Source of the DNA: Streptomyces sp. NBC_01283
GTDB lineage: Bacteria; Actinomycetota; Actinomycetes; Streptomycetales; Streptomycetaceae
Length of the DNA: 64,000 nt
Assembly (NCBI RefSeq): GCF_041435335.1
Contig: NZ_CP108430.1
Location: forward strand, 4,247,501 to 4,311,500
Reading direction: 5' to 3'
Shown: piece after piece, positions 29,979 through 47,181 of the stretch
How the letters are laid out: every line of letters begins with the position of its first letter
Numbering within the stretch: the first letter of the stretch is position 1
Made by a program: the position numbers and the translations under genes
Notes under the pieces: model-generated
The model's input: only the letters and a program-made list of their open reading frames with translations
Told to the model about the DNA's origin: nothing
Database searches by the model: none

Positions 29979-30009
29979 GCGACTGCTGGGGTCAGACGGG
30001 GCAGACGGG

Positions 30010-30669
30010 TCAGACAGTGACGCCGTTGGAGCGCAGGAACGCGACCGGGTCGACCGCCGAGCCGTAGTTCGGGGTCGTACGGATCTCGAAGTGCAGGTGC
30101 GGGCCGCTGGAGTTCCCGGTGTTGCCGGAGGCGGCGATGTGCTGGCCGGTGCCGACGGTCTGGCCGACGCGCACGTCGATCTTCGACAGGTGCGCGTACT
30201 GCGAGAACGTGCCGTTGTCGTGCTTGATCACGATGGCGTTGCCGTACGCGGGGCCGTCACCGGCGCCGTTGCCGCCGGCCTTGACGACGGTGCCGTTGTG
30301 CACGGCCTCGACGGAGGTGCCGATCGACACGGCGAAGTCCTGGCCGGAGTGCTTGCTGGACCACATGTTGCCGCCGAGCCCGAAGGACGCGGAGAGCGTG
30401 TACTTGTCGACCGGGTCCTGCCAGGCGGCGGCCTTCTTGGCGGCGGCCTGCTGAGCCTTGGTCGCGGCCTTGGCCTGCGCGTCGGCCTGGGCCGATATCG
30501 AGTTCGCGGAGACGCCGGGCAGGGCGCCGCTCTTGGCGTCCGCGGCGGCCGCGATCCCGGAACCGAGGGCGGCCGATGCGCCGAGCCCGAGGGTGGCGAC
30601 GGTGATGACGGCCGTCCGCGTACGGAGCAGGGACAGGCCGGACTGGTGGGACGTGGCGCGCTTCGACAT
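30010..30669 (-). CDS. Secreted M23-family metallopeptidase (peptidoglycan endopeptidase)
   Basis: 219 aa from the ATG at 30669, preceded by CGGAGG. A Sec signal peptide spans about residues 1-43 (hydrophobic core AVITVATLGLGASAALG, AAAADA cleavage region). A short Ala/Lys/Gln-rich helical linker (55-82) leads to the M23 domain: zinc ligands H107-x3-D111 (HSGQD) and HxH at 191-193 (HLHFE), with His160 as catalytic base (YAHLS). It should cut peptide cross-links in the wall. Similar streptomycete enzymes act in germination and growth and several are controlled by c-di-AMP riboswitches. Confidence 0.93.
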   Translation of the reverse strand: MSKRATSHQSGLSLLRTRTAVITVATLGLGASAALGSGIAAAADAKSGALPGVSANSISAQADAQAKAATKAQQAAAKKAAAWQDPVDKYTLSASFGLGGNMWSSKHSGQDFAVSIGTSVEAVHNGTVVKAGGNGAGDGPAYGNAIVIKHDNGTFSQYAHLSKIDVRVGQTVGTGQHIAASGNTGNSSGPHLHFEIRTTPNYGSAVDPVAFLRSNGVTV

Positions 30670-31188
30670 GGCGGATGACCTCCGGGATGGGGAGCGTGTA
30701 CGTGACACCGCCGCTGTCGCTGCGTGGCACGGACTGGGACATAAAGGGACCCGGCAGACGCTTCGCTGCGTTCCGTCGGGGCCTCACCTTGGTAACCCGC
30801 ACCCCACCCCCTGCTCAAACCCCCCATCTACTACCTAAAGCCGTAGCCGACCGCCCCCCTTTCGACCTCTTGACACCTACAAATCCCGACAATTCCCCCT
30901 TCAACTACTTGCCGGTTTTAACGGCTGACGTCAGGTTTAACCCCACTTCGAGAGGGCATCTCGGGCCAGCACTGGCACGTCCCGGGGGTGAACCCCGCCG
31001 ACGCGTCGAAGGTCCCGGGGGTTGCGTGCCGAAGGTCCCGACGAGGCGGCTGGGCGGCACCACTATTCCGTCTAGTACCGGACATATCGCCTGTGCGTCA
31101 TGTCACCGGACCGCAAGATCCACCGAGGGGTGAGTGTGACGGGGACTACGCTTGGCCACCGATTCACGGCCCTCGGGGGGAACGGCAC
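30670..31188. promoter_or_regulatory. 519-bp divergent intergenic region, M23 peptidase / NACHT1
   Basis: No gene is visible. On the minus strand the part near the peptidase forms a hairpin ACGC-AGCGAA-GCGT (near 30756-30769) enclosed by CCCG/CGGG arms, consistent with a structured leader. Mid-region is AT-rich for this genome, with the 10-bp palindrome CTGACGTCAG (30925-30934) flanked by TTTTAACGG and GTTTAACC. Towards NACHT1 there is an 11-bp direct repeat CGAAGGTCCCG (31007 and 31030). I looked for the conserved c-di-AMP (ydaO) riboswitch elements and could not convincingly find them. Confidence 0.5.
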
Positions 31189-34100
31189 ATGGATCCCGCA
31201 GTCCTCGGCACCCGCCTGGCATCGAGCCTGGTCGCACCGCTGGTCAAGAAGCTGTTCGTGCAGGAAGGGCCGGGCGCGGGCCTGGTGGACCGGCCCGTGC
31301 GCATCTCCGGGCTCGTCTCCTTCCGCGGCGAGAAGCGGACCCTCACAGACCAGGACGTGCAGCGGCTCGCGGCCCGGCTGGTGGATCAGTCCCTGTCCTC
31401 GCCGGGTGAGCGGCCCTTTCCCGAGGAGGAGAGGACAGCGGTCGCCCACGCCCTGGCCCGCGTGCTCCTCGCACTCGGCGACCTCGGCCTCAATGACATC
31501 GAGGCGGTCACCAGGGGCCACCGCGCGCTCGCCAAGGAGCTGCTCCGTGCGACGCCCCCGACCGGCCTGTCGGCCGACGCCGACTTCTTCCTCGGCTCGG
31601 TCACCGAGTGGGCCTGCCTCCAGATCCTGCACTTCTTCACGCAGCGCTCCACGTTCGTGGCCCGCTCCCTGGTCGAGCAGAGCCGTACGCAGGCGGAGCT
31701 CATCGTCAGGCTCGACGAGCTGATCGCGCGCAGCCCCCGCGTGGATGCCCTCGACGCGCGCTTCGAGCGGCGCTACCTCGCGGCGGTCGCGAGGAAGCAC
31801 AACCGACTGACGATCTTCGGGATCGATCTGGTGAATTCGCCGGGACGGTGGCCCTTGGACGCGGCGTACATGTCGCTGGAGGCGACGGCACGCCCCTCGC
31901 CCGACACGTCCTTCGAGTTGGATTTCGAGACGCTGCCCTCGGGCTCCGACCCGGAGATGAGGGCCTCTTCCCTGCGGGAATCCCTCGGCGAGGCGCTGGC
32001 GACCTTCAACCAGAAATTCGAGGCTGCCCGCCCCGCCGACCAGGCCCTGGCGGACCACGACCGCGTGCTCCTGCGGGGCGAGGCGGGCTCCGGCAAGACG
32101 ACGCTGGTGCAGTGGCTCGCGGTGAGCGCGAGCGCGGCCGACCCCGTCGGGCCCGACGGCCGGATGACGTACCTCCACGACCGCATCCCCTACGTACTCC
32201 CCCTGCGCACCCTCACCCGCCACGGCGAGCGCCTCCCCGCCCCCGCGGACTTCCTCAGAGCGGTCGGTTCCCCCCTGGCGGGTTCGCAGCCCACCGGCTG
32301 GGAGACCCGCGTACTGACGTCGGGCCGGGCACTGGTCCTGGTCGACGGCATCGACGAGATCCCGGAGTCGGAGCGCTCACGCACGCGCGAGTGGCTCGGC
32401 GACCTGATCGACGCGTATCCCGGCAACCGGTGGCTCGTGACGTCGCGCCCTTCGGCCGTGGGTGAGGACTGGCTGGCCGAGCAGGCGTTCACCGAACTGA
32501 CGCTGTCGCCGATGAGCCGGTCGGAGGTGGCCGCGTTCATCCACCGCTGGCACCGGGCGGCACGCGCAGGTACGCCCGAGGAGGACGAGCCCCTCCTCGC
32601 GTACGAGGGGCAACTCCTGGAAGCGGTGGCGGTGAAGCCGGACCTCGGCCGCCTCGCGACCAACCCGCTCATGTGCGGTCTGATCTGCGCGCTGCACAGG
32701 GACCGGCGGGGCTTCCTCCCCCTGGGCCGGAAGGATCTGTACGCGGCGGCCCTGTCGATGCTGCTGATCCGCCGGGACCGGGAACGCGACATGCACGTAC
32801 CGGAGCTCCGGGAGGAGCCGCAGCTCCAACTGCTGCAACGCCTCGCCTACTGGCTGATCCGCAACGGCCGTACGGTGATGGACCGTTCACGGGCCGAGGC
32901 CATCATCGCGGACGCCTTGCCGGCCGTCCCGGAGCTGGCCGCACTGGGCGACGCGGAGGCGGTGTACGCCCACTTCCTCCACCGCAGCGGACTCCTCCGC
33001 GAGCCGGGTCCTCGTACGGTCGACTTCATCCACCGCACGTTCCAGGACTTCCTCGGCGCGCGGGCCGCCGTGGACGAAGGGGACTTCGGTTTCCTCGCCC
33101 GCCAGGCGCCCGACGACCAGTGGGAGGACGTGATCCGGATGGCGGTGGCTCAGGCGCGCCCCCGTGAACGGGCGGAGATATTCCGGGACTTGCTCGAAGT
33201 CGCGGACAAGCTCCCCGCTGGGCACGTCAGGAAACGGGTCCACCTGCTGACGGCGGCCTGCCTCGAACATGCGGCAGAGCTGGCACCGGCGGTGCGGACG
33301 GAGGTGGAGCAGCGGATGTCGGCTCTCATTCCGCCGCGCAACGCGCTGGACGCACGTGAACTCGCCGCGGTCGGGCCCATGGTCCTGGACCTGCTCCCGG
33401 GGCCGGACGGACTGGACGGACTGGATGACGAGGACGCCCGTCATGTGGCGATCACCGCGACGCACGTCCAGTCGGACGCGGCGATCCCCTTCCTCGCACG
33501 ATTCGCGCGTCATCCCGGCATCGGCGTCCGCAGCCAGCTCATGTGGGGCTGGAGCCGTTATGACTGCCGGGCCTACGCGGACCAGGTCATTTCGCAGCTG
33601 GACGACGGGGTTACCCACTTCGTCCTCCGCACCGACGAACAGGTGGCGGAGATAACACGGTTGGGGCTGCGTCCCCGTCATCTCGATATCCGCGAGGGCG
33701 TCTCCCCACAGGCTGCCTCCCATTTGCTCGTGGCCTGTGAACCCACCTTCCTGATGCTCAAGATCCACCCGGCACGCCTCACGACGGAGGCTCTCGGAGC
33801 GTTGCGCAACCTCATTGCTCTGCGCGTATTCAACGTGTACGAGCCCTGGAGCCTCTCCCTTTTCCCGCCCGACGCGCCCCTGCGCACCTTGGGGATCTTC
33901 GAGGCCCTCAGTCACCTGACGGACCTGCGGCACATGGACAGATGGCCCGGGCTGAAGTGGGTGATCTTCGGTGAATCCGACCTCCTGAACACCGGGGAGG
34001 CATGGGAGCCCCTCACGCGTCTCCCCCAGCTCACCGAGCTGTCACTGGCCTCCGCGAGCTTCGCCTGCGCCCCCTCCGACCTGAGACTGCCCGACATCTC

Positions 34101-34341
34101 ACTGCTGCAGCTGTTTCCGACAGGGGGGCAGAGAATCGCGGCATCCCGCATTCCGAGGATCCTGCCAGGGCTCAAGGCGCTGAACGTGCTCCCCTCGGCA
34201 AGTCCGACGACGTTCGATGTCGCCCCCTTGGCGCAACTTCCGGCTCTCGAACAGCTCAGAGTCCCCGTTCCCGGCGTCACCGGCCTGGACGCCATCCCCG
34301 CCGACGTCGACGTGGTCACCTACCACCCGTTCAACGATTGA
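31189..34341 (+). CDS. NACHT-domain NTPase 1 (STAND/NLR-like, LRR C-terminus)
   Basis: 1050 aa from the ATG giving MDPAVLGTRLASSLVAPL; the upstream in-frame extension is rejected. Order: N-terminal helical region (about 1-230; shares LVAPLVKKLFV and FFTQRSTFVAR with NACHT2), NACHT NTPase with Walker A GEAGSGKT (297-304, Lys303) and Walker B LVLVDGIDE (to Glu390), the winged-helix-like TNPLMCGLICALHRDR (491-) and FIHRTFQDFL region, a helical repeat zone, and leucine-rich-like repeats in the last 200 residues (ALRNLIALRVF, LPQLTELSLAS). STAND NTPases of this kind oligomerise on ligand sensing; several bacterial NACHT proteins protect against phage. Effector activity is not evident. Confidence 0.92.
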   Translation: MDPAVLGTRLASSLVAPLVKKLFVQEGPGAGLVDRPVRISGLVSFRGEKRTLTDQDVQRLAARLVDQSLSSPGERPFPEEERTAVAHALARVLLALGDLGLNDIEAVTRGHRALAKELLRATPPTGLSADADFFLGSVTEWACLQILHFFTQRSTFVARSLVEQSRTQAELIVRLDELIARSPRVDALDARFERRYLAAVARKHNRLTIFGIDLVNSPGRWPLDAAYMSLEATARPSPDTSFELDFETLPSGSDPEMRASSLRESLGEALATFNQKFEAARPADQALADHDRVLLRGEAGSGKTTLVQWLAVSASAADPVGPDGRMTYLHDRIPYVLPLRTLTRHGERLPAPADFLRAVGSPLAGSQPTGWETRVLTSGRALVLVDGIDEIPESERSRTREWLGDLIDAYPGNRWLVTSRPSAVGEDWLAEQAFTELTLSPMSRSEVAAFIHRWHRAARAGTPEEDEPLLAYEGQLLEAVAVKPDLGRLATNPLMCGLICALHRDRRGFLPLGRKDLYAAALSMLLIRRDRERDMHVPELREEPQLQLLQRLAYWLIRNGRTVMDRSRAEAIIADALPAVPELAALGDAEAVYAHFLHRSGLLREPGPRTVDFIHRTFQDFLGARAAVDEGDFGFLARQAPDDQWEDVIRMAVAQARPRERAEIFRDLLEVADKLPAGHVRKRVHLLTAACLEHAAELAPAVRTEVEQRMSALIPPRNALDARELAAVGPMVLDLLPGPDGLDGLDDEDARHVAITATHVQSDAAIPFLARFARHPGIGVRSQLMWGWSRYDCRAYADQVISQLDDGVTHFVLRTDEQVAEITRLGLRPRHLDIREGVSPQAASHLLVACEPTFLMLKIHPARLTTEALGALRNLIALRVFNVYEPWSLSLFPPDAPLRTLGIFEALSHLTDLRHMDRWPGLKWVIFGESDLLNTGEAWEPLTRLPQLTELSLASASFACAPSDLRLPDISLLQLFPTGGQRIAASRIPRILPGLKALNVLPSASPTTFDVAPLAQLPALEQLRVPVPGVTGLDAIPADVDVVTYHPFND

Positions 34342-34759
34342 GCTGGAACCACACGCCTTTGCCCCTCCCGGCAGGCGTCACCCCGCAGAGGTCCGACAGT
34401 GCGGTCACGAGGAACAGGCCCCGGCCGCCCTCGGCCTCGGCGGGGGCGCTTCTGGGGGAGGGCAGGCGGTCGCTTCCGTCGTACACCGCGACGCGTACGT
34501 GCGTGGGTGCGATGGCGGCTCTCAGGTGTACGTCGCCCTTGGTGTGCTGATGGACGTTGGTCACCAGCTCCGAGGTGCAGAGCGCGGCGGCCTCGGCGAG
34601 GTGGGCGAGGCCCAGGGTCAGCAGTGCGCCGCGCACGAAGTCACGGCAGATCTTCGGGGAGCTCGCGTCCGCCAGGGCGAACAGGGTGTAGGCACGCGGG
34701 AGTTCGGGTTGCTCCGGTTGTTCGGGTCCGCATACCGGGTCATGCACGGTTACGCCCAT
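34331..34759 (-). CDS. ATP-binding (HATPase) anti-sigma-like regulator, WhiJ/AbaA cluster type
   Basis: 142 aa. A GHKL ATPase fold: N box CTSELVTNVHQHT (61-73), acidic VAVYDGSDR, and G box EGGRGLFLVTALSD. There is no dimerisation or receptor domain, as in RsbW/SpoIIAB-like and AbaA-associated ATPases of Streptomyces. Together with the WhiJ-like HTH gene and the DUF397 gene just downstream it makes the three-gene module recurrent in streptomycetes and linked to developmental control. Its 3' end overlaps NACHT1 convergently by 11 bp. Confidence 0.85.
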   Translation of the reverse strand: MGVTVHDPVCGPEQPEQPELPRAYTLFALADASSPKICRDFVRGALLTLGLAHLAEAAALCTSELVTNVHQHTKGDVHLRAAIAPTHVRVAVYDGSDRLPSPRSAPAEAEGGRGLFLVTALSDLCGVTPAGRGKGVWFQLNR

Positions 34760-35080
34760 GAGACGCCTCCAAGGCGCGCGTCGGGGGTTCGCTGTGGCGG
34801 TGATGATCTCGCCTGACCTGCCAATCGCCCGGCCGCAGTGGCTTACCGCCCCTCGCGAACAAGTCGCCGTCCGGCACGGGGACTTGGATCGGGCAGTGCG
34901 CTTCTGCGGGCAGGCACGGGGTTACTGCGCCAGCAGCGAGGCTTCCACCATCAGCGTGTGAGCGTCGCCATACACACCGTAGCGATACAGGGGTTACTTG
35001 TTCAACCTAAAGCTCACCTTTGGTGGACCGAGACCCCGGCGCGGGGCAAACTGTCCCCACCTTCACAAGGGGAGACAGCG
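34760..35080. promoter_or_regulatory. 321-bp divergent intergenic region of the WhiJ-like module
   Basis: No protein-coding gene is supported. The half nearest the HTH gene is AT-richer and carries one copy (34990-35009) of a 20-bp motif that recurs inside the HTH gene, the small dyad CACC-TTT-GGTG (near 35020), and GGGGAGACAGCG just before the TTG start. It should hold divergent promoters for the ATPase and for the HTH-DUF397 pair. Confidence 0.5.
34990..35009 (+). repeat. 20-bp motif, copy 1 (putative operator)
   Basis: GGGGTTACTTGTTCAACCTA, 72 bp upstream of the HTH gene start. It differs at one base from the copy at 35276-35295. It contains a near-palindrome GGTT-(N8)-AACC. Confidence 0.6.
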
Positions 35081-35983
35081 TTGGCACTGCGAACAGCTCC
35101 CACCGAGCGGCAGGTCCGACTCGGTTTTGAGCTCCGAAGGTTGCGTGAGCGCAGTGGGCTGACTGTGCAGGCAGCCGGAGAAGTCATCGGCATGGGACGC
35201 GTACACCTGACCCACGCGGAGAACGGGCGCACCCCGATCTCCGCCGAACGCATCCGCACCCTGTGCCAGGCATTTGGGGTTACTAGTTCAACCTACGTCG
35301 ATGCCCTGGTGGGCCTGGCCGAGTCGAACGGGAAGGGCTGGTGGACCGGCTACAAATCCCAACTCCCGGCGTCCGCACTCGACCTGGCCGAGCTGGAGGC
35401 CGAAGCCGCAGCGCTCAGCTCCTACGAGTCGTTGTTCCTGCCGGGGCTGTTCCAGGTCGACGCCTACACACGCGCCATCTTCGAAGCCAGCGACGCGGTG
35501 AGCACGGCGGAGGAGATCGAGGCCTCTGTCCGCTTCCGCCAGGAGCGCCAGCGCGCACTCAGGGCCGACAATCCTCCGCACATCCACGCCGTCATCCATG
35601 AAGCCGCCCTCCACATGCGCTTCGGCGGCCCGCACGTCATGCACCAGCAACTGCTCAAGCTGGTCGAACTGTCCGAACTCCCGCATGTGGAGATCCAGAT
35701 CATGCCCTTCACCGCAGTCGCGGTGTCGGCGCTCACCACACCGTTCTGCCACATCGCCTCGCACGACAGCGCGCTGGAGACCGTACTGCTGGAGCATCCG
35801 GCACAGTCCATGTTCCTGTACGAAGAGGAACCTCTGGCCAAGTACCGCCGCCAGTTCGAACGGCTGAGCGCTGCCGCGCTCCCCGCCATCGACGCGACGG
35901 TGATCCCGGTGACACACGCGGCAAGGGACTCGCTCGGCCTCGTACAACACGTTCTGTACACGCTCCAGGAGGCACAAGCATGA
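35081..35983 (+). CDS. WhiJ-like HTH regulator (Scr1/DUF5753 family)
   Basis: 300 aa from a TTG start at 35081 with GGGGAG 6 nt upstream. An Xre-type HTH occupies about residues 10-70 (LGFELRRLRERSGLTVQAAGEVIGMGRVHLTHAENGR). The rest is the DUF5753 domain: YESLFLPGLFQVDAYTRAIFEA, RQERQRAL, the HAVIHEAALHMRFGG core and PVTHAARDS. Such proteins partner with small DUF397 proteins in developmental modules (WhiJ-BldB type) and have also been described as toxin-antitoxin-like. It overlaps the DUF397 gene by ATGA. Confidence 0.9.
   Translation: MALRTAPTERQVRLGFELRRLRERSGLTVQAAGEVIGMGRVHLTHAENGRTPISAERIRTLCQAFGVTSSTYVDALVGLAESNGKGWWTGYKSQLPASALDLAELEAEAAALSSYESLFLPGLFQVDAYTRAIFEASDAVSTAEEIEASVRFRQERQRALRADNPPHIHAVIHEAALHMRFGGPHVMHQQLLKLVELSELPHVEIQIMPFTAVAVSALTTPFCHIASHDSALETVLLEHPAQSMFLYEEEPLAKYRRQFERLSAAALPAIDATVIPVTHAARDSLGLVQHVLYTLQEAQA
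35276..35295 (+). repeat. 20-bp motif, copy 2, inside the HTH coding sequence
   Basis: GGGGTTACTAGTTCAACCTA, 19 of 20 bases identical to copy 1 and 286 bp downstream of it. It encodes part of the segment GVTSSTYVD. It may be an intragenic operator or a codon-level coincidence. Confidence 0.6.
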
Positions 35984-36174
35984 CCACGCTCGACTGGCAG
36001 AAGTCGTCCTTCAGCGGCGACCAGGCCAACTGCGTCTACCTCGCCGCCCCCCAGGACGGCACCGTGCGCCTCCGTGAGAGCGACGCCCCGGAGACGACCC
36101 TCACCACTACACCCGAAGCTCTCGCGGCCCTGATACGTACCCTCAACGGCCCGGCTATTCGATGGTCAGGGTGA
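35980..36174 (+). CDS. DUF397-domain small protein (BldB-like partner)
   Basis: 64 aa, ATG overlapping the HTH stop (ATGA). The sequence follows the DUF397 pattern: LDWQKSSFSGDQANCVYLA at the start, VRLRESD in the middle and a final helix ALAALIRTLNG. These small proteins accompany WhiJ-like HTH regulators and are related to BldB, a developmental protein of Streptomyces. Its end overlaps the convergent tube-like protein gene by 20 bp. Confidence 0.9.
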   Translation: MTTLDWQKSSFSGDQANCVYLAAPQDGTVRLRESDAPETTLTTTPEALAALIRTLNGPAIRWSG

Positions 36175-36697
36175 AGAACCTGACCGTGAGCGTCTCGGCG
36201 CCCGGGGTCTCGGGGTTCGGGGTCGCGGGGCGGTCGATGCGCTCCACGAACGCGCCCTTGAGGTGATACTGCTTCACGGCGTTGTCCTGGTAGTCGAGCA
36301 TCTCAAGGGTGACGTCCTTGAGGCGTCCCTCGCGGTCCTCGGTGGCGGCTTCGATCCAGCGGTCGACCTCGGCGCTGTGGGTGGCGCCCCGCACCAGGGT
36401 CACCTTCTGTTCCTCCAGACCGGAGACCTCCTGGAGGTTCTCGACGGGGGCGCCGTCCATCCGCAGGCGGAAGTTGTGCGACGCCAAGGCGTCCCCCGGC
36501 TGGAGCTGGCCCTTCGTAACCGTTCCCTTGTCCGCACTGGCCTTCGCGGGGGCGGCAGTGGAAGCGGAGGCACGCGGCGCGGAGTCGGAGTCCGAACCCG
36601 TGGCCACCGCCACCGTGGTGCCGCCCGCGGCGAGTAACAGGGCACTGGCGAGGCCGACCCAACGCGCCTTGCCGCTCCTCAGGAAAGTGCTGCTCAT
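36155..36697 (-). CDS. Secreted or membrane-anchored protein with phage tail-tube (gp19-like) domain
   Basis: 180 aa. The N-terminus is a signal peptide or anchor (about 12-33: RWVGLASALLLAAGGTTVAVA) followed by a Ser/Ala/Lys linker (35-62). Residues 74-180 have the layout of T4 gp19-type tube proteins: NFRLRMDGAPVENLQEVSGLE, a LVRGATHSAEVDRWIEAA helix, then VTLEMLDYQDNAVKQYHLKGAFV and a final LTVRFFTLTIE strand. Tube proteins are normally cytoplasmic, so a leader is unexpected. No sheath, spike or baseplate gene is in the window. Fold assignment is by pattern recognition only. Confidence 0.7.
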   Translation of the reverse strand: MSSTFLRSGKARWVGLASALLLAAGGTTVAVATGSDSDSAPRASASTAAPAKASADKGTVTKGQLQPGDALASHNFRLRMDGAPVENLQEVSGLEEQKVTLVRGATHSAEVDRWIEAATEDREGRLKDVTLEMLDYQDNAVKQYHLKGAFVERIDRPATPNPETPGAETLTVRFFTLTIE

Positions 36698-36778
36698 GAC
36701 GTTCCCCTCGGGAAGAAGCCGATCCTTGGTGGCGTGCTCGGTGAGGTACTGGATGACGTACTGAGTGGTCTGCGGGGC

Positions 36779-37510
36779 CTATGAGGCTCCGCCCTGGCCC
36801 GCGCTGCCGATCGGGAAGACCTTGACCGGGGAGCCGGCGCCGTCGGTGACGGGCAGGCTGGAGGCGCCGGGCCACTCGATGGAGAGCGACTTCGACTGGC
36901 CGGGCGGGGTCACGGTCAGGCCCGTGATGCCCACGCCGGAACCGCCCGAGTCGTTCATCGGGTAGCTGATGCTGAAGAACACCGACTTGCCGTTCTTGAG
37001 GACCATCCGGTCTGCGGGCTGGCCACTGCGCGCGGCGGACAGCGGGCCCTCGCTGGTCTCCAGGTCCACACCGGCGAACCCGGACATCACGCAGTCCTTG
37101 CCACCGACGTTCTTCAGCTCCACCGCGACAGAGCCCTCGTCGTCGCCGTCGATGGTGCTGTCCGAGGCCGAGGCATCCACGTCGTCGGTGCGGCACTTGC
37201 CGAGCGCGGCACTCTGATCGCTCTGACCCGAACCGCCGCTCCCGGCAGCCGTGCCCTGCCCGGCGGAGCTCTTCTCGGCGGAGTCCTTACCGCCGCCCTG
37301 CTCCGACCCGCCCGAGCCCGGCCCGCCGCCCGACGAACCGGAGCCGCTGTCCGAGGAGGACGCACTCGACGCGGCCGAGGGATCGCCCTGCCCCATCACG
37401 TCATCGCCGTTGCAGGCGGTCAGCGAGAGGCTCGCGGCCACGGTCAGAGCCGCGGCGGCGAAGCGCAGGTTGCGGCGACGGTTTCCACGGATGGTGGTGT
37501 TGGAGCGCAT
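36779..37510 (-). CDS. DUF4232-like lipoprotein
   Basis: 243 aa from the ATG giving MRSNTTIRGNRRRN; upstream extension rejected. A lipoprotein signal peptide ends in the lipobox SLTAC (about Cys33). Residues 35-100 are a low-complexity Ser/Gly linker. The C-terminal 130 residues carry two cysteines (GKCRTDDVD and KDCVMSGFAGVDL) and NVGGKDCVMSGF, typical of DUF4232, a Streptomyces extracytoplasmic beta-domain. It is 81 bp upstream of the tube-like gene on the same strand, so both secreted proteins may be made together. Confidence 0.8.
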   Translation of the reverse strand: MRSNTTIRGNRRRNLRFAAAALTVAASLSLTACNGDDVMGQGDPSAASSASSSDSGSGSSGGGPGSGGSEQGGGKDSAEKSSAGQGTAAGSGGSGQSDQSAALGKCRTDDVDASASDSTIDGDDEGSVAVELKNVGGKDCVMSGFAGVDLETSEGPLSAARSGQPADRMVLKNGKSVFFSISYPMNDSGGSGVGITGLTVTPPGQSKSLSIEWPGASSLPVTDGAGSPVKVFPIGSAGQGGAS

Positions 37511-37645
37511 GGCGTGTCCCCCGGTAAGTAGTGGGTGGCGTTCCCTCCCTGGGAACAACACCGACTCTGGTGGAGGCCGCTAATGGCGGGTTCCTGTCCC
37601 GCTAACTTCCGCCTAACGCATCCGCGACCAGCCTCAAAGGCCTGT

Positions 37646-38662
37646 TCACGGGGCTTCCCGCCGGGCAGCCGACACCGCAAGGCGTTCGGCGAACTCCGTT
37701 ACCAGGCCACGTAGTTCATCAGGTCGCTCGATGACGAAGGGGCGGTCCAGCGAGGCGAGTACGGCAGGCAGCCAGTCCAGCCGCTCCACCCGCATGCCGA
37801 CGCGGGACCAGGGCTCGGCGGCCCCCGGATCCGCGTCACCCGGCGGCGGCAGCTCCTCCACGACGGCGATGCCCGCCGGAAGTCGCGCGCGGACGTCCTC
37901 GGCCGTGCCCTGAACGCACAGACTCACCTCGTGCCGGTACGGAGCGGTGGCGAGCCCCGTCAGCACGCGCCGCGCCGCGTCGACGTCGGCCGGCGGGTCG
38001 AACGAGCCCGGCAGGGTCCGCACCTCGGTGATGCGGTCCAGCCGGAACATCCGGTCCTCGCCGCTGCCGAGATCCGCAGCCGTCACGTACCACTTGCCCG
38101 AGTGCGCGACGAGCCCGTGCGGGTGCAGCGTGCGTTCGCTGCGGCGGCCGTTCCCGGCGGTGTACCGGATCGAGACCGGCCGGTGGTGGGCCACGGCGTC
38201 GGCGACCGGGAGCAGGACCGCCGATTCCGGGGCGACCGACCCCGCAGCGGTCGCCCCGCCGGGCGGAACCGTGAAGGCGACCGAGTCCAGCACCGCGTCG
38301 AGCCTGCGCCGCAGCCGCTCCGGCAGCACCCGCCGGATCTTGGCCGCCGCCGTCTCGCTCGCCGTGCCCGTAGCCGTCGTCAGGCCGGCCTGTCTCCCCG
38401 CGACCAGGCCGAGCAGCACGGCGAGCGCCTCGTCGTCGCTCAGCATGAGCGGAGGCATACGGAAACCGGCGGTGAGCCGGTAGCCGCCGTGGCGTCCACG
38501 CACCGACTCGACGGGCACGTCGAGGTCGACGAGGTGGCCGATGTAGTGCCGCACCGTGCGTTCGTCGACGTCGAGCCGGTCGGCCAGTTCGGCCGCGGTC
38601 CGGAGACCGCCGGACTGCAGGAGCTCCAGCAGGGTGAGTACGCGGGCGATGGGACGGGACAT
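37646..38662 (-). CDS. WYL-domain (YafY/DeoR-like) transcriptional regulator
   Basis: 338 aa. An N-terminal winged HTH (residues 1-60; RVLTLLELLQSGGLRTAAELADRLDVDERTVRHYI) is followed by the WYL domain (about 140-215), where the usual WYL motif reads KWYVTAADLGSGEDRMFRLDRI, and a C-terminal WCX-like extension. WYL proteins bind nucleotides or nucleic acids and regulate metabolism, DNA damage and defence loci. It is divergent from the VOC gene, with 154 bp between starts, and probably controls it; control of the NACHT2-NACHT3 genes beyond is possible. Confidence 0.9.
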   Translation of the reverse strand: MSRPIARVLTLLELLQSGGLRTAAELADRLDVDERTVRHYIGHLVDLDVPVESVRGRHGGYRLTAGFRMPPLMLSDDEALAVLLGLVAGRQAGLTTATGTASETAAAKIRRVLPERLRRRLDAVLDSVAFTVPPGGATAAGSVAPESAVLLPVADAVAHHRPVSIRYTAGNGRRSERTLHPHGLVAHSGKWYVTAADLGSGEDRMFRLDRITEVRTLPGSFDPPADVDAARRVLTGLATAPYRHEVSLCVQGTAEDVRARLPAGIAVVEELPPPGDADPGAAEPWSRVGMRVERLDWLPAVLASLDRPFVIERPDELRGLVTEFAERLAVSAARREAP

Positions 38663-38816
38663 GGGGAGAAGTCTCCCGCAGATACCGGGCGGATTCCGCC
38701 CGGTATTGGTCGTAGCGTGCGTTCAGAAGCACCGATCAGAACCACCGAGCGGCCTTGCACCGCAAGCCTGTACAGCCCTGTGCAGCCCTGTGCAGGCCTG
38801 TGACCTGGAGAAACCC

Positions 38817-39233
38817 ATGAACTTCGTCTCTGTCCGCATCATCACCGGCGACGTCGACCGCCTCGTCGCGTTCTACGAGCGCGCCACCGGAGCGACCGCC
38901 GACCGGCCCACCGAGGACTTCGCCGAGCTCAGGGTCGGCTCGGCCACCCTCGCGATCGGCAGCACCCGCACCGTCCCCCTGTTCGCGCCCGGCTCCGCCC
39001 GGCCCGCCGACAACCACAGCGTCATCCTCGAATTCCTGGTCGACGACGTGGACGCCGTGCACAAGAACCTGACCGGCTTCGTGGAGGACTTCGTCAACGA
39101 GCCCACCACGATGCCGTGGGGCAACCGCGCGCTCCTGTTCCGCGACCCCGACGGCAACCTCGTCAACTTCTTCACCCCGGTCACGCCCGCCGCCATCGAA
39201 AAGTTCGCCGCCGTCGAGAAGTTCGCCCGCTGA
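38817..39233 (+). CDS. VOC-family (glyoxalase/bleomycin-resistance-like) protein
   Basis: 138 aa from the ATG giving MNFVSVRIITGDVD. Two beta-alpha-beta-beta-beta modules are visible: DRLVAFYERATG in the first, and VDDVDAVHKNL with LLFRDPDGNLVNFFTP in the second, the latter carrying the usual metal/ligand Glu-equivalent region. Substrate is unknown. It is 58 bp upstream of NACHT2 on the same strand, so cotranscription with the two NACHT genes is possible. It is divergent from the WYL regulator. Confidence 0.88.
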   Translation: MNFVSVRIITGDVDRLVAFYERATGATADRPTEDFAELRVGSATLAIGSTRTVPLFAPGSARPADNHSVILEFLVDDVDAVHKNLTGFVEDFVNEPTTMPWGNRALLFRDPDGNLVNFFTPVTPAAIEKFAAVEKFAR

Positions 39234-39291
39234 AGTCAGGGCGGGGCCCCAACTGCCCCCGCCCACAAGCCCCTTCACCTACTCTCGACAC

Positions 39292-41847
39292 ATGGTCGAA
39301 GCCAGCGCGCTAGGCGCCCGCATCGCGTCCGGCGTCGTCGTGCCGCTCATCAAGAAGCTCTTCGTGCCGGACCAGCCGGGCGCGGCCCTGGTGGACAAGC
39401 CCGTGCGCGTCGCCTCGCTCGTCTCGTTCAGCGGCGAGAAGCGCAACATCACGCCGAAGGACGTCGAGAAGGTCGCCGACGAGCTCGTCCGCAGGGCGCT
39501 CAAGGCGGCCGGGCCCCGCGAGCAGCCCGTCGATCCGGCGGAGGCCCTCGCCGTCAGGAACGCCCTGGCCCGCACGCTCGCCGTCCTCGGCACCCTCACC
39601 ATCGAGGACTACGAGGCCGTCGCCCTGGGCCCCGAAGCCTTCGCGAGCGAGCTCCGCGCCCGGGCGCTCCTGTCCGCCTCCGCCCTCTCCCGCGACGCCG
39701 AGTTCTTCTACGACCAGCTCCTCCACACCGCCGCCCTGCACATCCTCAACTTCTTCTCCCAGCGGTCCACGTTCATCGCCCGCCAACAGCTCGTACAGAC
39801 ACAGCAGTTGGCCCGCCTCGTACAGGCCCTGGACATCCTTCTCGACCGTCTGCCCTCGCAGACCGCCGAGGACGCCGCCTTCGAGGCGCTGTACGCCACC
39901 CACATCGGCGAGCGGCACGGCACCCTCACCATCTACGGCCTGGACGCCGGAACCAGCGAGTGGCCCCTCGACACCGCCTACCTCAGCCTCGAAGCCACCC
40001 GCGAGCGCACCGGCCCCGGCGGCAGCGGACTGCACGTCCCCGCCGAGCAGGTCCTGGCGCAGCACGACCAGGTCCTGCTGCGCGGGGTCGCGGGCTCCGG
40101 CAAGACCACCCTCGTCCAGTGGCTCGCCGTGACGGCGGCGAGCCGGACGTACGAGCATGGGCTCACGCATCTCATCGGGCGCGTGCCGTTCGTCCTGCCG
40201 ATGCGGCGGATCCTGCGGCCGGGGGCCGAGCTGCCCACCCCGGGGAAGTTCCTGGACGCCGTCGCCTGCCCGGTCGCGGGCGAGCAGCCGCGCGGTTGGG
40301 TCGAGCGCGTCCTGCGTGCCCGGCGGGGCGTGCTCCTCGTCGACGGGATAGACGAGATCGCCGGTGACCGGCGGGAGAGCGCCCGCCGGTGGCTGCGCGA
40401 GCTGGCGCGGACCTTCCCCGGCAACCTGTGGCTCGTCACCTCGCGCCCCTCCGCCGTCCCCGAGCAGTGGCTGACCGCCGCCGGCTTCAACGAACTCACG
40501 CTCTCCCCGATGTCCCGGCACGACGTCGCCACGTTCGTACGCCGCTGGCACAGCGCCGCCCGGGCGGACGAGTCCACCGGGGTGTCCCTGCTCCAGGCCG
40601 TACGGACCACGACCGAGCTGAACCGCCTCGCCACCAACCCCCTGATGTGCGGCATGCTCTGCGCCCTGCACCGGGACCGGAACGGCTTCCTGCCCGAGGA
40701 CAGGAAGTCGCTCTACGAGGCCGCGCTCTCCATGCTGCTCGAACGGCGGGACAGGGAACGGGGACTGGACGATCCGGGCGGCGTACGGATTCCGTACGCC
40801 ACGCAGATCCAGCTCCTTCAGCGGCTCGCGTGGTGGCTGATCCGCAACGGCCGCTCGGAGATGGACCGTTCGGACGCGCTGCACATCATCACGCAGGCGC
40901 TCCCCTCGCTGAACCTGAACGGCGACGCCGAGGAGATCTACACCTCGCTCCTGCTGCGGTCCGGTCTGCTGCGCGAACCCGCCGACGGGCGCGTGGACTT
41001 CCTCCACCGGACGTTCCAGGACTACCTCGGCTCCCGTCTCGCCGTACAGGAACTGGACTTCGATCTGCTCCTGAACAACGCGGACAAGGACCAGTGGGAG
41101 GACGTGGTCCTGCTCGCCATCGCGCACGCGCGTCCGAAAGAGGCCGAGCAGATGCTGCGGCGGCTCGTCGAGCAGGGCACCCCGCGCGGAAAGCTCCTTG
41201 CCGCCGCCGGGCTGCCGTACGCGGCGGAGGTGGCGCCCGCGGTCCGTTCGTTCGTGGAGGTCGGGGTGCGGCTGATCGTGCCGCCCGGCTCCAGCGCGGA
41301 GGCCGAGGAACTGGCGCGGGTCGGCGGCGAGCTGGTGCTGTCGCTGCTGCCATCCGCCGAGGGGCTCGACGACGCGACGGCACGCCATGTCGTGCGGGCG
41401 GCGAGCGAGTTGGGCAGCGAGTCGGCCCTGCACTTCCTGACCCAGTTCCGCGAGCACCCGAACATGGACGTCCAGCGGACCCTCGCCGCGTCCTGGCCGC
41501 GCTTCGACCGCGAGCTCTACGCCCGCGAGATACTCGCGCATCTGCCCCGGCAGGCCCGGGTCACCGTGCGCGACACCGATGACCTGCGCGCCCTGCGTGC
41601 CATCGGCGGCTGGGCGGACATCCAGGTCGTCGGCGCCTACCGCGTCGAGGACCTGACCGAACTGATCGTGGCCGAGAAACTCACGCGGCTCGGCCTGGAG
41701 GCGTCCCACCCCGTCGAAGGACTGGCCTGGCTGTCGGTCTTCCCGAACCTCAGGAGGGTCCATGTGACCTCTGAGGTGGCTGAGGCGGTGGCTCAGCAGG
41801 CGCCGGGCCGGATCGAACTCATCACCCCGCCACCGTGGAGGAGTTGA
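39292..41847 (+). CDS. NACHT-domain NTPase 2 (STAND/NLR-like)
   Basis: 851 aa from ATG. The N-terminal helical region (1-225) is close to that of NACHT1 (VVPLIKKLFV, NFFSQRSTFIAR, LTIYGLDAGTSEWPLDTAYLSLEA). Walker A is GVAGSGKT (265-272, Lys271), Walker B LLVDGIDE (348-355), then TNPLMCGMLCALHRDR (448-) and FLHRTFQDYLGS (570-). A helical repeat region follows and the protein ends in a short LRR-like stretch (LTELIVAEKLTRLGL, LSVFPNLRRVHV). It is 51 bp upstream of NACHT3, probably in one operon. The same family role as NACHT1 is inferred. Confidence 0.92.
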   Translation: MVEASALGARIASGVVVPLIKKLFVPDQPGAALVDKPVRVASLVSFSGEKRNITPKDVEKVADELVRRALKAAGPREQPVDPAEALAVRNALARTLAVLGTLTIEDYEAVALGPEAFASELRARALLSASALSRDAEFFYDQLLHTAALHILNFFSQRSTFIARQQLVQTQQLARLVQALDILLDRLPSQTAEDAAFEALYATHIGERHGTLTIYGLDAGTSEWPLDTAYLSLEATRERTGPGGSGLHVPAEQVLAQHDQVLLRGVAGSGKTTLVQWLAVTAASRTYEHGLTHLIGRVPFVLPMRRILRPGAELPTPGKFLDAVACPVAGEQPRGWVERVLRARRGVLLVDGIDEIAGDRRESARRWLRELARTFPGNLWLVTSRPSAVPEQWLTAAGFNELTLSPMSRHDVATFVRRWHSAARADESTGVSLLQAVRTTTELNRLATNPLMCGMLCALHRDRNGFLPEDRKSLYEAALSMLLERRDRERGLDDPGGVRIPYATQIQLLQRLAWWLIRNGRSEMDRSDALHIITQALPSLNLNGDAEEIYTSLLLRSGLLREPADGRVDFLHRTFQDYLGSRLAVQELDFDLLLNNADKDQWEDVVLLAIAHARPKEAEQMLRRLVEQGTPRGKLLAAAGLPYAAEVAPAVRSFVEVGVRLIVPPGSSAEAEELARVGGELVLSLLPSAEGLDDATARHVVRAASELGSESALHFLTQFREHPNMDVQRTLAASWPRFDRELYAREILAHLPRQARVTVRDTDDLRALRAIGGWADIQVVGAYRVEDLTELIVAEKLTRLGLEASHPVEGLAWLSVFPNLRRVHVTSEVAEAVAQQAPGRIELITPPPWRS

Positions 41848-41898
41848 CCTACCCTTGACCCTCCACGACACACGACATCCCACCCGCAGGGACCCGCT

Positions 41899-44469
41899 AT
41901 GTCCATGGAGCCCGTTGTCCGCATCCCCTCGACGCTCGCCGCACCCCTGGTACAACGGCTCATCCGGCTGCCCACCGCGCAGCCGCCCGTCACGCCCGAC
42001 CTGATCGCCGCCCTCGCCACCTGGCGCGGCGCCGACGCCCCGGCGACACCGGACGACGTGCACCGTACGGCTGCGGACTTCGTCCACGTCGCCGCCGAGG
42101 CGCGCGCCGCACCGACGACCGAACTCGCCTCCGTGGTCGACGTGTTGACACGCACGCTCCTTGCCATCGGCGAACTGGAGCTCACGGACGTGGACGCCGT
42201 GCGCCTCGGGCCGCAGGACTACGCACGGCGGCTGAGGGGCGCCGTGCAGGGCGCGGACCGCTCCCTCTCCCCCGGCGCCGCGTGGTTCCACGACGAGCTG
42301 CTCGTGGCCGTGTGCCTGCACGTCCTGTACCACTTCGTCCGGCGCTCCCCGTACATCCAGCGGCACATGGCCGAGCGGGCGAGCCGCATCCGCCAGCTCA
42401 TCGACCTGAACGACGCGGAGGCCGCCGCCCGCCAGCCCGAACGCTCCCAGGAGGACCGGGACTTCGAGTCCGCGTACGCCGAGGAGGTCGTACGTCAGCA
42501 CGGCTGGCTCACCATCGTCGGCGTGGACCTGGCCAACGCTCCGGACCGCTGGGCCCTTGAGGACACCTACCTCAGCCTGGAGGCGGAGGAGAGCAGCGGC
42601 AGCGGCGTACCGGGCGAACCACGGACCGTGCTGCTCGCCGACCGGGCCCTGGAGGGCCATGAGCGGGTGCTGCTCCGCGGTGTGGCGGGCTCAGGCAAGA
42701 CGACCCTCGTGCAGTGGCTCGCCGTGGCCGCGGCGCGCGAGGGCGCCCGGGTGCCGTTCGTGCTGCCCGTACGCCGCTTCGCCCGCGAGGGCTTCCCCGC
42801 CCCGGACGACTTCCTGCACGCCATCCGCCACCCGCTGGCCGACCAGGCACCGGAGGGCTGGGTCGTGCGCACCCTCCTCGCGGGCCGCGCCATGCTCCTG
42901 GTCGACGGGATCGACGAGGCCCCGGAGGCCACCCGCGGCGAGCTGCGCAACCAACTGCGCCGCCTGCTGCGCATCTTCTCCGGCAACGGCTGCCTGGTGA
43001 CGTCCCGCCCCTCCGCCGTCGAGGACGGCTGGCTCGCCCAGGAGCGCCTCGCCGAGGAGGGCTTCAAGGAGCTCTCCCTCGCGCCGATGTCACGCGACCA
43101 GGTCACCCGCTTCATCCACGACTGGCACGCGGCGGCGATGAGCGACGACCAGTGCAAGGAGCAGGCGGACCGCGACAAGCTGCGGGAGTACGAGGAGCGG
43201 CTGCTGCACTCCGTGCGCATCTACCGCGAGCTGCGCCAGCTCGCCACCAACCCCCTGATGTGCGGCCTGATATGCGCCCTCAACCGCGACCGCTCCGGCT
43301 CCCTGCCCAAAGGCCGCAAGGAGCTGTACGACGCCGCCCTGGAGATGCTCCTCCAGCGCCGCGACCCCGAACGCGACGTCCTGTACGCCGATGACGTGCG
43401 CCTCCAGCAGGGCCCCCGGGAGCTGCTCCTGCGCAAGCTGGCCCACGCGATGGTGGAGGAGGGCGTCTCGGAGCTGCCGCGTGAGCGCGTCGTCGCCATC
43501 CTGGACGGTGCCCTGCCCGCCATCCCCTCCGCACGCGCCGAGGGCGACGGCGAGAAGATCTTCCGTCATCTGCTGCACCGCACGGGGCTCCTTCGCGAAC
43601 AGGCGGGCCTCTCGGTGGACTTCATCCACCGCACCTTCCAGGACTACCTGGCCGCCAAGGAGATAGTGGCCCGCGGCCGGCTCCGCGCCCTCGTCGAGCA
43701 CGCGCACCGGGCCGAGTGGGAGGAGGTCATCCGCATGGCCGCCGCCCACGCACGGCCCGAGGAGTGCGCCGACTTCCTGGAGCGGCTCCTGGCCGCCGCC
43801 CCCAACCTGCGCCGCCCGCACGTGAATCACCGGCGCCTGATGGCCGCGGCCTGCCTGGAGCACGTCACCGAGCTCGACCCCGCGGTGCAGCAGCTCGTCC
43901 ACGACCGCACGAAGAACCTCGTGCGCCCCACGACGGAGCTGGCCGCCCGCAGCCTCGGCTGGGTCGGCCCCATCGTCCTGGAGCAGCTGCCGGACCCCGA
44001 GCAGGTGCCGAGCGACCAGCAGGCGCTCCTTCTGGCGATCACGGCCACCCGCGTCCAGGACGACGCCGCCATCGACTACCTCGCCCGGCTGCGCCACCGC
44101 TCGGCGCTGTCCATCCGCACCGAGCTGGTCCGCCCCTGGCGGCACTTCGACACGGAGCGGTACGCGCGCGAGATCATCGCCCACCTCGATCCGGTCGGCC
44201 TGTACTTCCCGGTGTCCGACACCGCCGAGCTCGCGGCGCTGCGGCACCTCGGCGGGCGGCCGTGGATCCAGGTCGTGGGCGTCATGCGCACCGAGGAGCT
44301 GCTCGACGGCCTGGAGCACGAGCAGCTCACCCATCTGTGGGTCACCGCCGAGCTGGCCGACACGGACATGTCCTGGCTCGCCCGCTTCCCGAACCTGAGC
44401 GTGCTGCGGGTGAACCCCCGCCTCCCCCGCGTGCGGAACGTACCGGAGGGAATCACGATCACGTCGTAG
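41899..44469 (+). CDS. NACHT-domain NTPase 3 (STAND/NLR-like, divergent N-terminus)
   Basis: 856 aa from ATG. The N-terminal 120 residues differ from NACHT1 and NACHT2, though HVLYHFVRRSPYIQRHM and LTIVGVDLANAPDRWALEDTYLSLEA keep the family pattern. Walker A is GVAGSGKT (261-268, Lys267), Walker B LLVDGIDE (to Glu340), then TNPLMCGLICALNRDR (450-) and FIHRTFQDYLAA. The C-terminus ends in a short LRR-like region (LTHLWVTAELADTDMSWLARFPNLSVLRV). A divergent N-terminus may mean a different effector or partner. Two hairpins follow the stop. Confidence 0.92.
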   Translation: MSMEPVVRIPSTLAAPLVQRLIRLPTAQPPVTPDLIAALATWRGADAPATPDDVHRTAADFVHVAAEARAAPTTELASVVDVLTRTLLAIGELELTDVDAVRLGPQDYARRLRGAVQGADRSLSPGAAWFHDELLVAVCLHVLYHFVRRSPYIQRHMAERASRIRQLIDLNDAEAAARQPERSQEDRDFESAYAEEVVRQHGWLTIVGVDLANAPDRWALEDTYLSLEAEESSGSGVPGEPRTVLLADRALEGHERVLLRGVAGSGKTTLVQWLAVAAAREGARVPFVLPVRRFAREGFPAPDDFLHAIRHPLADQAPEGWVVRTLLAGRAMLLVDGIDEAPEATRGELRNQLRRLLRIFSGNGCLVTSRPSAVEDGWLAQERLAEEGFKELSLAPMSRDQVTRFIHDWHAAAMSDDQCKEQADRDKLREYEERLLHSVRIYRELRQLATNPLMCGLICALNRDRSGSLPKGRKELYDAALEMLLQRRDPERDVLYADDVRLQQGPRELLLRKLAHAMVEEGVSELPRERVVAILDGALPAIPSARAEGDGEKIFRHLLHRTGLLREQAGLSVDFIHRTFQDYLAAKEIVARGRLRALVEHAHRAEWEEVIRMAAAHARPEECADFLERLLAAAPNLRRPHVNHRRLMAAACLEHVTELDPAVQQLVHDRTKNLVRPTTELAARSLGWVGPIVLEQLPDPEQVPSDQQALLLAITATRVQDDAAIDYLARLRHRSALSIRTELVRPWRHFDTERYAREIIAHLDPVGLYFPVSDTAELAALRHLGGRPWIQVVGVMRTEELLDGLEHEQLTHLWVTAELADTDMSWLARFPNLSVLRVNPRLPRVRNVPEGITITS

Positions 44470-44575: not shown

Positions 44576-44586
44576 TCAAAGCAGAA

Positions 44587-44627
44587 GGGGCTGCCCCGGA
44601 CCGTGGAAAACGGTCCGGGGCAGCCCC
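44587..44627. terminator. Strong terminator after clpC (also facing NACHT3)
   Basis: Perfect 17-bp stem (GGGGCTGCCCCGGACCG with its complement) and a 7-nt loop TGGAAAA, between convergent NACHT3 and clpC. Confidence 0.85.
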
Positions 44628-44655
44628 TGTACTGCTGTACTGCGGGCCGGAGGCC

Positions 44656-47181
<2,526 letters not shown>

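Follow-up and report, generated by a model that had tools for sequence, protein, structure and literature searches.

The 64,000-nucleotide stretch of Streptomyces sp. NBC_01283 studied here (contig NZ_CP108430.1, positions 4,247,501 to 4,311,500; hereafter the window) carries three genes for NACHT NTPases, NACHT1, NACHT2 and NACHT3, between an M23 peptidase gene and clpB. We found that this interval is one chromosomal site where Streptomyces gain, lose and remodel NACHT genes. We postulate that it could be a nucleotide-binding leucine-rich repeat (NLR)-like receptor locus, in which NACHT2 would be a changeable sensor, NACHT3 a conserved executor and NACHT1 a stand-alone leucine-rich repeat (LRR) receptor, a composite proposal for which we judge the case to be evenly balanced. 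The genes and borders concerned are:

30010..30708, minus strand: M23 peptidase gene (Pfam PF01551), left border, a conserved flank
31189..34341, plus strand: NACHT1, 1050 aa; NNH1, NACHT, helical region and LRR end; in a clade with L114, L159 and L143
31207..31728, plus strand: NNH1 domain of NACHT1 (aa 7-180; Pfam)
32062..32559, plus strand: NACHT NTPase domain of NACHT1 (aa 292-457; Pfam)
33586..34338, plus strand: hypervariable LRR end of NACHT1 (about aa 800-1050), within-clade mean pairwise identity 37%
39292..41847, plus strand: NACHT2, 851 aa; NNH1, NACHT, helical region and short C-terminus; proposed sensor of the pair
41107..41844, plus strand: fast-evolving C-terminal third of NACHT2 (aa 606-851), from sequence comparison
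41848..41898, plus strand: 51-bp gap between NACHT2 and NACHT3, consistent with a single transcript
41899..44469, plus strand: NACHT3, 856 aa; divergent NNH1, NACHT and conserved C-terminus; proposed executor/helper of the pair
44656..47181, minus strand: clpB (ClpB-type), right border, convergent with the NACHT genes

An initial annotation of the window had described three paralogous NACHT genes here and had placed them among NNH-type bacterial NACHT proteins. Pfam profile searches bear out both claims: all three genes are open, and their products match NNH1 (PF22733, 'NACHT N-terminal Helical domain 1') and NACHT (PF05729) far above the curated cut-offs of 27 and 26.7 bits, at 176 and 100 bits for NACHT1, 150 and 110 bits for NACHT2, and 91 and 106 bits for NACHT3, whose NNH1 domain is the most divergent of the three. 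The start of NACHT1 is the ATG at 31189, since the longer frame from 30988 falls outside the conserved N-terminus. The Walker A (GxAGSGKTTLVQW), VDGIDE, TNPLMCG and FxHRTFQD motifs, previously noted as shared, are indeed common to all three proteins. Walker A and Walker B are intact in these and in 11 of 11 members of the NACHT1 clade (N1), 20 of 21 of the NACHT2 clade (N2) and 40 of 40 of the NACHT3 clade (N3), and both NNH1 and NACHT were matched at E ≤ 0.01 in 48/48 NACHT1-type relatives (alignment A3). The LRR-like end that had been ascribed to all three proteins is clear only in the NACHT1 type and was not shown for NACHT2 and NACHT3, whose C-terminal ends are, by eye, short stubs carrying few repeat-like motifs or none. 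A profile of the 48 NACHT1-type relatives matches solved LRR proteins over approximately positions 800-1043 (best E = 1e-24) and Pfam LRR_4 matches 17 of the 48 members; when NACHT1 of the window was searched by itself, no LRR family of Pfam was matched.

NACHT1 shares 49% of its residues with NACHT2 and 45% with NACHT3. In a FastTree phylogeny of 160 rows, NACHT2 lies in the N2 clade (21 rows, support 100) and NACHT3 in the N3 core clade (23 rows, support 100), which is nested in clades of 40 and 51 rows. A recent triplication is rejected: the three genes fall into separate, well-supported clades, each with its own orthologues, and on this phylogenetic evidence they are old paralogues rather than the simple multi-copy set suggested earlier. 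A fourth NNH1-NACHT gene lies 1.7 Mb away (G000:C1:2546299-2548848), near aconitase and oxidoreductase genes.

Next, we surveyed the site itself. The clpB gene is present in 149 of 150 Streptomyces genomes, and the same flanks recur around the interval: a TetR gene and the M23 peptidase gene on the left (window 29403-30708), and clpB, a GNAT gene and pantothenate kinase on the right. A census covered up to 20 kb on the NACHT side of clpB in 80 genomes, a non-random set ranked by similarity of their ClpB to that of the window; G001 (no ClpB match), G078 and G119 (contig end) were excluded and 40 further genomes were left out. Five of the 80 sites had no recognized left border (one of them, L221, has a NACHT gene). 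Among the 75 bounded sites, 47 were without NACHT and 28 were filled: in 12 of these the alignment to a window NACHT starts ahead of query residue 60, scored as NNH1-NACHT, and in 16 it starts past that residue, scored as another N-terminus. Counted as frames with a profile that a narrow pattern had limited to 16 segments, 47 sites had none, 26 had one and two had two; stop-to-stop frames scored one NACHT inside the borders of L145, which actually has two. Of the 28 filled sites, L219 holds pieces only and L200 one broken gene, counted as two frames. The median interval is 1064 bp when empty and 3986 bp when filled. The site takes 0 to 4 NACHT genes with unrelated neighbors in between, and all 73 NACHT frames near clpB, in the census sites together with 26 loci chosen earlier for their NACHT hits (not part of the 75), lie on the strand opposite clpB. 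Nor is the family confined to this site: among the matches listed, 40 of 73 places, in 30 of 41 genomes with ≤10 contigs, lie within 25 kb of clpB and the other 33 lie away from it, a count that does not include the window's own genome or eight low-contig genomes without listed places. At E ≤ 1e-30, any relative was found in 110 of 150 genomes for NACHT2 and likewise in 110 of 150 for NACHT1. Proteins sharing 69-71% identity with NACHT2 are encoded in S. venezuelae records.

Traces of turnover are visible within the site. NACHT debris was detected in 6 of the 47 empty sites and in 0/47 of the same sites reversed; in L191, L199 and L194 (genomes G005, G052 and G100) it is of a trypsin-type NACHT, while the NNH1 matches in G067 and G133 are likewise debris between the M23 peptidase gene and clpB. 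Streptomyces longisporoflavus has a NACHT2 and a NACHT3 that are 90% and 92% identical to those of the window, yet the gene in the NACHT1 position comes from a different clade and is 57% identical. In L120, where NACHT3 is solitary, a 46-aa remnant resembling the long partner lies upstream; a search for such a remnant upstream of L119, L130 and L132 found none. At 16 of the 28 filled sites, the NACHT protein lacks an NNH1 match. Trypsin-like peptidase families matched all six such proteins scanned, of which five come from those 16 sites or from L176 and L177, where an NNH1-NACHT is adjacent, and the sixth from L241. In an alignment of 18 proteins (15 from the 16 sites, without the broken L200, plus L167, L176 and L177), H211, D242 and S331 are invariant (18/18), and their motifs suggest a catalytic triad. 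Both kinds of NACHT stand side by side in G143, G098 and G007. Peptidases serve as outputs of bacterial NLR-like systems (PMC13236601). The presence of a protease NACHT in the same slot, together with these known peptidase outputs, therefore supports the N-terminus, by position NNH1, as the output end.

Inside the locus, NACHT2 appears to be paired with NACHT3. We collected distinct loci with an N3-clade gene scoring >950 bits, 37 of 40 of which have >1.5 kb of readable upstream sequence. In 31 of these 37, an NNH1-NACHT gene lies ≤400 bp upstream on the same strand. Pairing is tightest in the N3 core clade, where 20 of 21 readable loci are paired with gaps of 3-51 bp and all 20 partners belong to the NACHT2 clade. 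In the S. albus-like clade, 11 of 16 loci are paired, with gaps of 74-281 bp; nine partners are of a long type and two of a short type (L128 and L129), and they belong to clades other than that of NACHT2. Among the unpaired loci, L114 has a NACHT1-type gene 2.4 kb away and no NACHT2 piece was found there; in L127 the distance is 4.6 kb. The three partner clades and sampled members form one side of a branch with weak support (71/82), so there may have been one old partner lineage for NACHT3 proper. Two other topologies were rejected: 18 tested partner rows as a single clade (p = 2e-41), and the addition to the partner lineage of the L153 and L157 partners of NACHT3-like genes (p = 4e-11).

The two members of the pair evolve at different rates. 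Across 19 loci (20 had both genes; L107, at a contig end, was dropped), the ratio of NACHT2 to NACHT3 divergence was 1.11 in NNH1, 1.47 in NACHT plus the winged-helix domain (WHD), 3.08 in the helical region and 2.36 in the C-terminus, over 171 non-independent comparisons with loci in common. For nine disjoint locus pairs, NACHT2 was the less conserved partner in the helical region in 9/9 and in the C-terminus in 7/9. The ratio of nonsynonymous to synonymous substitution rates (dN/dS) in the C-terminal third ranged from 0.17 to 0.59 for NACHT2 and from 0.02 to 0.20 for NACHT3; it was higher for NACHT2 in eight of the nine pairs and equal at two decimals in the other, the window versus S. longisporoflavus. 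At the extreme, L113 (S. tendae) and L126 share 56% of C-terminal residues in NACHT2, whose NNH1 domains are 91% identical, and 98% in NACHT3.

The NACHT1 type varies at its LRR end, where the 10 full proteins of the NACHT1 clade have a mean pairwise identity of 37%, against 78% in NACHT and 81% in the region that follows it. In 9/9 NACHT1-type gene pairs, the LRR has a higher dS than NACHT+WHD, and dN/dS is 0.25-0.69 in the LRR versus 0.14-0.25 in NACHT+WHD, never exceeding 1. When 75-codon windows were compared, DNA identity in three of four pairs ran at 80-97% up to about codon 675-750 and then at 54-60%; in one pair, ~92% fell to 54-57% across the repeats. L124 vs L112 passes through one window of 73%, and L116 vs L124 ends in one of 73%. 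The fourth pair, NACHT1 of the window vs L114, declines more gently. The ClpB flank is 97-100% identical (one pair checked). Because identity falls and dS rises in the LRR, we infer that the LRR end has been replaced by a distant allele, that is, by exchange rather than by very fast divergence. A donor of LRR ends was not found: nearest neighbors of core and C-terminus differ in 50 of 79 cases, with an excess of 15 points in only five. Presence of all three genes throughout Streptomyces with an invariant C-terminus, which the initial annotation had set against its defense interpretation, is not the pattern observed, as the site is empty in 47 of 75 cases and the LRR stands at 37% vs 78% for NACHT. 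Its suggestion of different sensors or a cooperating system fits both the C-termini, the most variable part of these proteins, and the recurrent asymmetric pair.

These observations suggest the following scheme. By analogy with NLR biology, NNH1 would be an output or oligomerization domain, NACHT the switch and the C-terminus the sensing region. NACHT1 might act as a stand-alone LRR receptor, its recognition end being replaced or diversified as a unit by putative exchange. NACHT2 and NACHT3 are most likely co-transcribed and would act jointly: NACHT2 would recognize an invader through its fast-changing C-terminus, its NACHT domain would open, and it would recruit the slowly evolving NACHT3 through putative NACHT and NNH1 contacts. 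The assembled NNH1 domains might then trigger growth arrest or death, or recruit a killer. That NACHT2 senses, that NACHT3 executes, that NNH1 assembles, that cells arrest or die and that the target is phage are all steps that we infer, whereas the domains, motifs, site, turnover, pairing and asymmetry are seen directly in the sequences. From the sequence evidence, a role of the NACHT locus in conflict or defense is likely, and that role is probably anti-phage. We regard a joint function of NACHT2 and NACHT3 as reasonably probable, a view lowered slightly by the existence of solitary NACHT3-like genes. The assignment of NACHT2 as sensor and NACHT3 as helper falls a little short of an even case. 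More tentative is the broader idea that bacteria might possess true paired receptors, NACHT3 being a conserved helper NLR serving exchangeable NNH1-NACHT sensors with cassette-replaced recognition ends, which would make this an R-gene-like locus in Streptomyces where sensor and helper divide the labor; the same solitary genes reduced our confidence in it by a small step.

Several observations weigh against this scheme. NACHT3 can be solitary: in six of the 37 readable loci no partner lies within 400 bp, and no NACHT gene was found upstream of NACHT3 in L119, L120, L130 and L132. Of 11 further NACHT3-like rows in the 51-row clade, eight (L148-L152 and L154-L156) are solitary, six of these adjoining clpB, and three (L136, L153 and L157) are paired; pairing hence characterizes the NACHT3 clade without extending to all of its relatives. 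The rate asymmetry is weak in the pair formed by the window and S. longisporoflavus (C-terminal identity 91% in NACHT2 and 90% in NACHT3). With Walker A and B intact in NACHT2 and NACHT3 alike, the sensor is not marked by a degenerate switch. Exact TSRP is retained in only 26 and exact FxHRTFQD in only 22 of 40 NACHT3 proteins, with losses in the S. albus-like group. Amphipathicity of the N-terminal helix was no better than in shuffles, with 13% of 60 NNH1 sequences at ≤0.05. Searches with PADLOC defense models gave weak matches only, around the P-loop (best 21.7 bits), and at E ≤ 1e-10 matched 0 of 10 neighbor proteins from five NNH1-NACHT loci away from clpB; most genes next to NNH1-NACHT copies elsewhere are unassigned or serve metabolism or transport.

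The best-placed alternative is that the three proteins are independent receptors, the site simply collecting NACHT genes and the adjacency of NACHT2 and NACHT3 reflecting co-insertion and linked inheritance, with each acting alone. The capacity of the site for 0 to 4 NACHT genes with unrelated genes between them, the unpartnered NACHT3 of L119, L120, L130 and L132, the eight solitary distant relatives and the intact Walker motifs in 40/40 NACHT3 proteins all speak for this alternative. It accounts less well for the N2-clade gene kept directly upstream, on the same strand and 3-51 bp away, in 20 of 21 N3-core loci, or for the second lineage that keeps NACHT3 behind partners from other clades, the 18 partner rows not being one clade (p = 2e-41); moreover, the rate difference recurs in disjoint pairs (helical region 9/9, C-terminus 7/9). 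We consider independent receptors unlikely.

In some plant receptor pairs, one partner restrains the other, and NACHT3 might similarly bind NACHT2, or another partner, and hold it off until infection lifts the brake. The conserved partner does sit behind the variable one, and the NNH1 of NACHT3, the most divergent (91 vs 150-176 bits), could be signaling-poor. Nevertheless, solitary NACHT3 and NACHT3-like genes are kept in several genomes, which would be odd for a pure inhibitor, and Walker A and B are intact in 40/40 NACHT3 proteins; restraint is improbable. Least probable of all are non-immune regulators of development or protein-quality stress tied to clpB or the DUF397/HTH genes: clpB adjoins, HTH-DUF5753, DUF397 and HATPase genes lie between NACHT1 and NACHT2, and STAND-type proteins (signal transduction ATPases with numerous domains) such as AfsR control Streptomyces antibiotics (PMC10936776), but clpB occurs in 149/150 genomes vs a NACHT lacking at 47 of 75 bounded sites and is convergent with 73/73 frames, DUF397 recurs in few loci only (a weak point, given a strict cut-off and a wrong-frame HTH query), and conflict is the better fit for the debris, the variable ends and the protease found in the same slot.

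An operon or functional link with clpB is not supported, as clpB is convergent and nearly universal. Given that bNACHT25 needs DnaJ for phage protection (PMC12169576), a chaperone link through the bordering clpB is a thought only.

The proteins of the window resemble known systems in several respects. Like the bNACHT proteins, for example bNACHT25, they have a central NACHT, a C-terminal sensing region and a variable N-terminal domain, and some bNACHTs have LRR ends; they differ in their NNH1 N-terminus, the recurrent NNH1-NACHT pair and the fixed chromosomal site (PMC12169576). In that report, a bacterial NACHT defense protein is a single protein that has a sensor end and an effector end of its own. 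CARD-NLR/LypABC systems likewise combine a STAND ATPase with trypsin-like peptidases and a cell-death outcome, and a protease-NACHT occupies the same Streptomyces slot, whereas NNH1 replaces the protease in the window proteins (PMC13236601). No CARD, gasdermin or separate protease gene was noted among the window genes scanned, no specific search having been made. STAND conflict systems of multicellular bacteria share an NTPase switch, a variable effector, multicellular hosts and nearby DUF397 (PMC7159879, PMC8195603). The window locus was not recognized as a vWA-MoxR ternary system or an effector-associated domain (EAD) system as described in those reports, and the word NNH is absent from their main texts. 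Plant sensor-helper NLR pairs and animal NAIP/NLRC4 (PMC9975940) offer an analogy, with adjacent or interacting partners of which one is variable and one conserved; the window pair differs in being bacterial NACHT/NNH1, in its putative interaction and in that neither partner has a degenerate Walker motif. Among open-access articles, searched by title and the start of the abstract, a set in which subscription papers are under-represented, none of those listed concerned NNH1, a clpB-adjacent NACHT site or pairs of NACHT proteins in bacteria.

RGA5/RGA4 is an example of a plant sensor-helper NLR pair. If the proposal is true, such a division of labor and receptor-cluster evolution would have arisen in bacteria too. 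The M23 peptidase-clpB interval can be read in any Streptomyces genome and so gives an address for collecting new receptors, and the variable ends, if swappable, could provide a handle on recognition.

Of 296 genomes sampled across the phylum, 10 had an NNH1 match; seven were above the cut-off, six of these being Streptomyces. Compared by sequence with solved structures, NNH1 gave nothing below E = 0.18. Membrane-inserting CC (coiled-coil)/MADA-type N-termini are a class with an amphipathic first helix; a resistosome-like membrane pore of this type found no support, the conserved first helix of NNH1 being amphipathic only at the level of shuffles. The NCBIfam anti-phage NACHT/STAND models matched weakly (EruA, 30.6 of 1000 bits; DS8, 21.3 of 790 bits). 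A phage or virus origin was rejected, with NACHT3 unmatched in 50,697 phage records, and two short peptide patterns used on viral contigs confirmed no relative. NACHT1 has relatives in 71 plasmid records, all but one at <60% identity. We also noted that in the Streptomyces/Embleya plasmids H1-H14, 12 of 14 NACHT1 matches begin after residue 130, mostly without NNH1; these plasmids are a possible reservoir for exchange. Two further relatives are unusual: L169 (G105), of the NACHT1 type and away from clpB, is flanked by an Hsp70 gene and a ClpB-like gene (50% identical), again a chaperone neighborhood, and the NNH1-NACHT protein P0113 of Streptomyces sp. ActVer carries a source name and precomputed domains that include a PDDEXK nuclease, possibly a fusion.

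The spacing given by the initial annotation stands, with NACHT2 and NACHT3 51 bp apart and NACHT1 ending 4.95 kb (given as ~5 kb) before NACHT2 starts. The 'developmental module' that it placed in the larger gap can be refined to HATPase_c_2, HTH-DUF5753, DUF397, tail-tube-like, DUF4232, WYL regulator and glyoxalase genes, of which the first three are located as follows.

34331-36174: HATPase_c_2, HTH (helix-turn-helix)-DUF5753 and DUF397 genes, between NACHT1 and NACHT2 (Pfam)

S. longisporoflavus (L103) again has both a HATPase and a DUF397 match, and G128 (L140) has a HATPase match. DUF397 was matched in few loci only (L103/L139 and L156), with a cut-off that is strict for so short a protein; the HTH-DUF5753 and glyoxalase queries were in the wrong frame, which makes their comparison uninformative. 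DUF397/HTH has been proposed as a toxin-antitoxin pair recruited to conflict systems (PMC7159879). The gene at 36155-36697 (minus strand) encodes a 180-aa protein with, by eye, an N-terminal signal or membrane segment followed by a domain like that of tail tubes or the inner tubes of contractile injection systems (PF06841 of Pfam at 33.8 bits; TIGR02241 and CIS1 match weakly). It may be an orphan tube-fold protein that is exported. Promoter-like and terminator-like sites in the region occur in chance numbers only, no more than in shuffles, with no Rfam family match. Lastly, a strong 19-pair G+C-rich hairpin with a T-rich tail lies at 44586-44628, between the convergent NACHT3 and clpB, and is perhaps a terminator.

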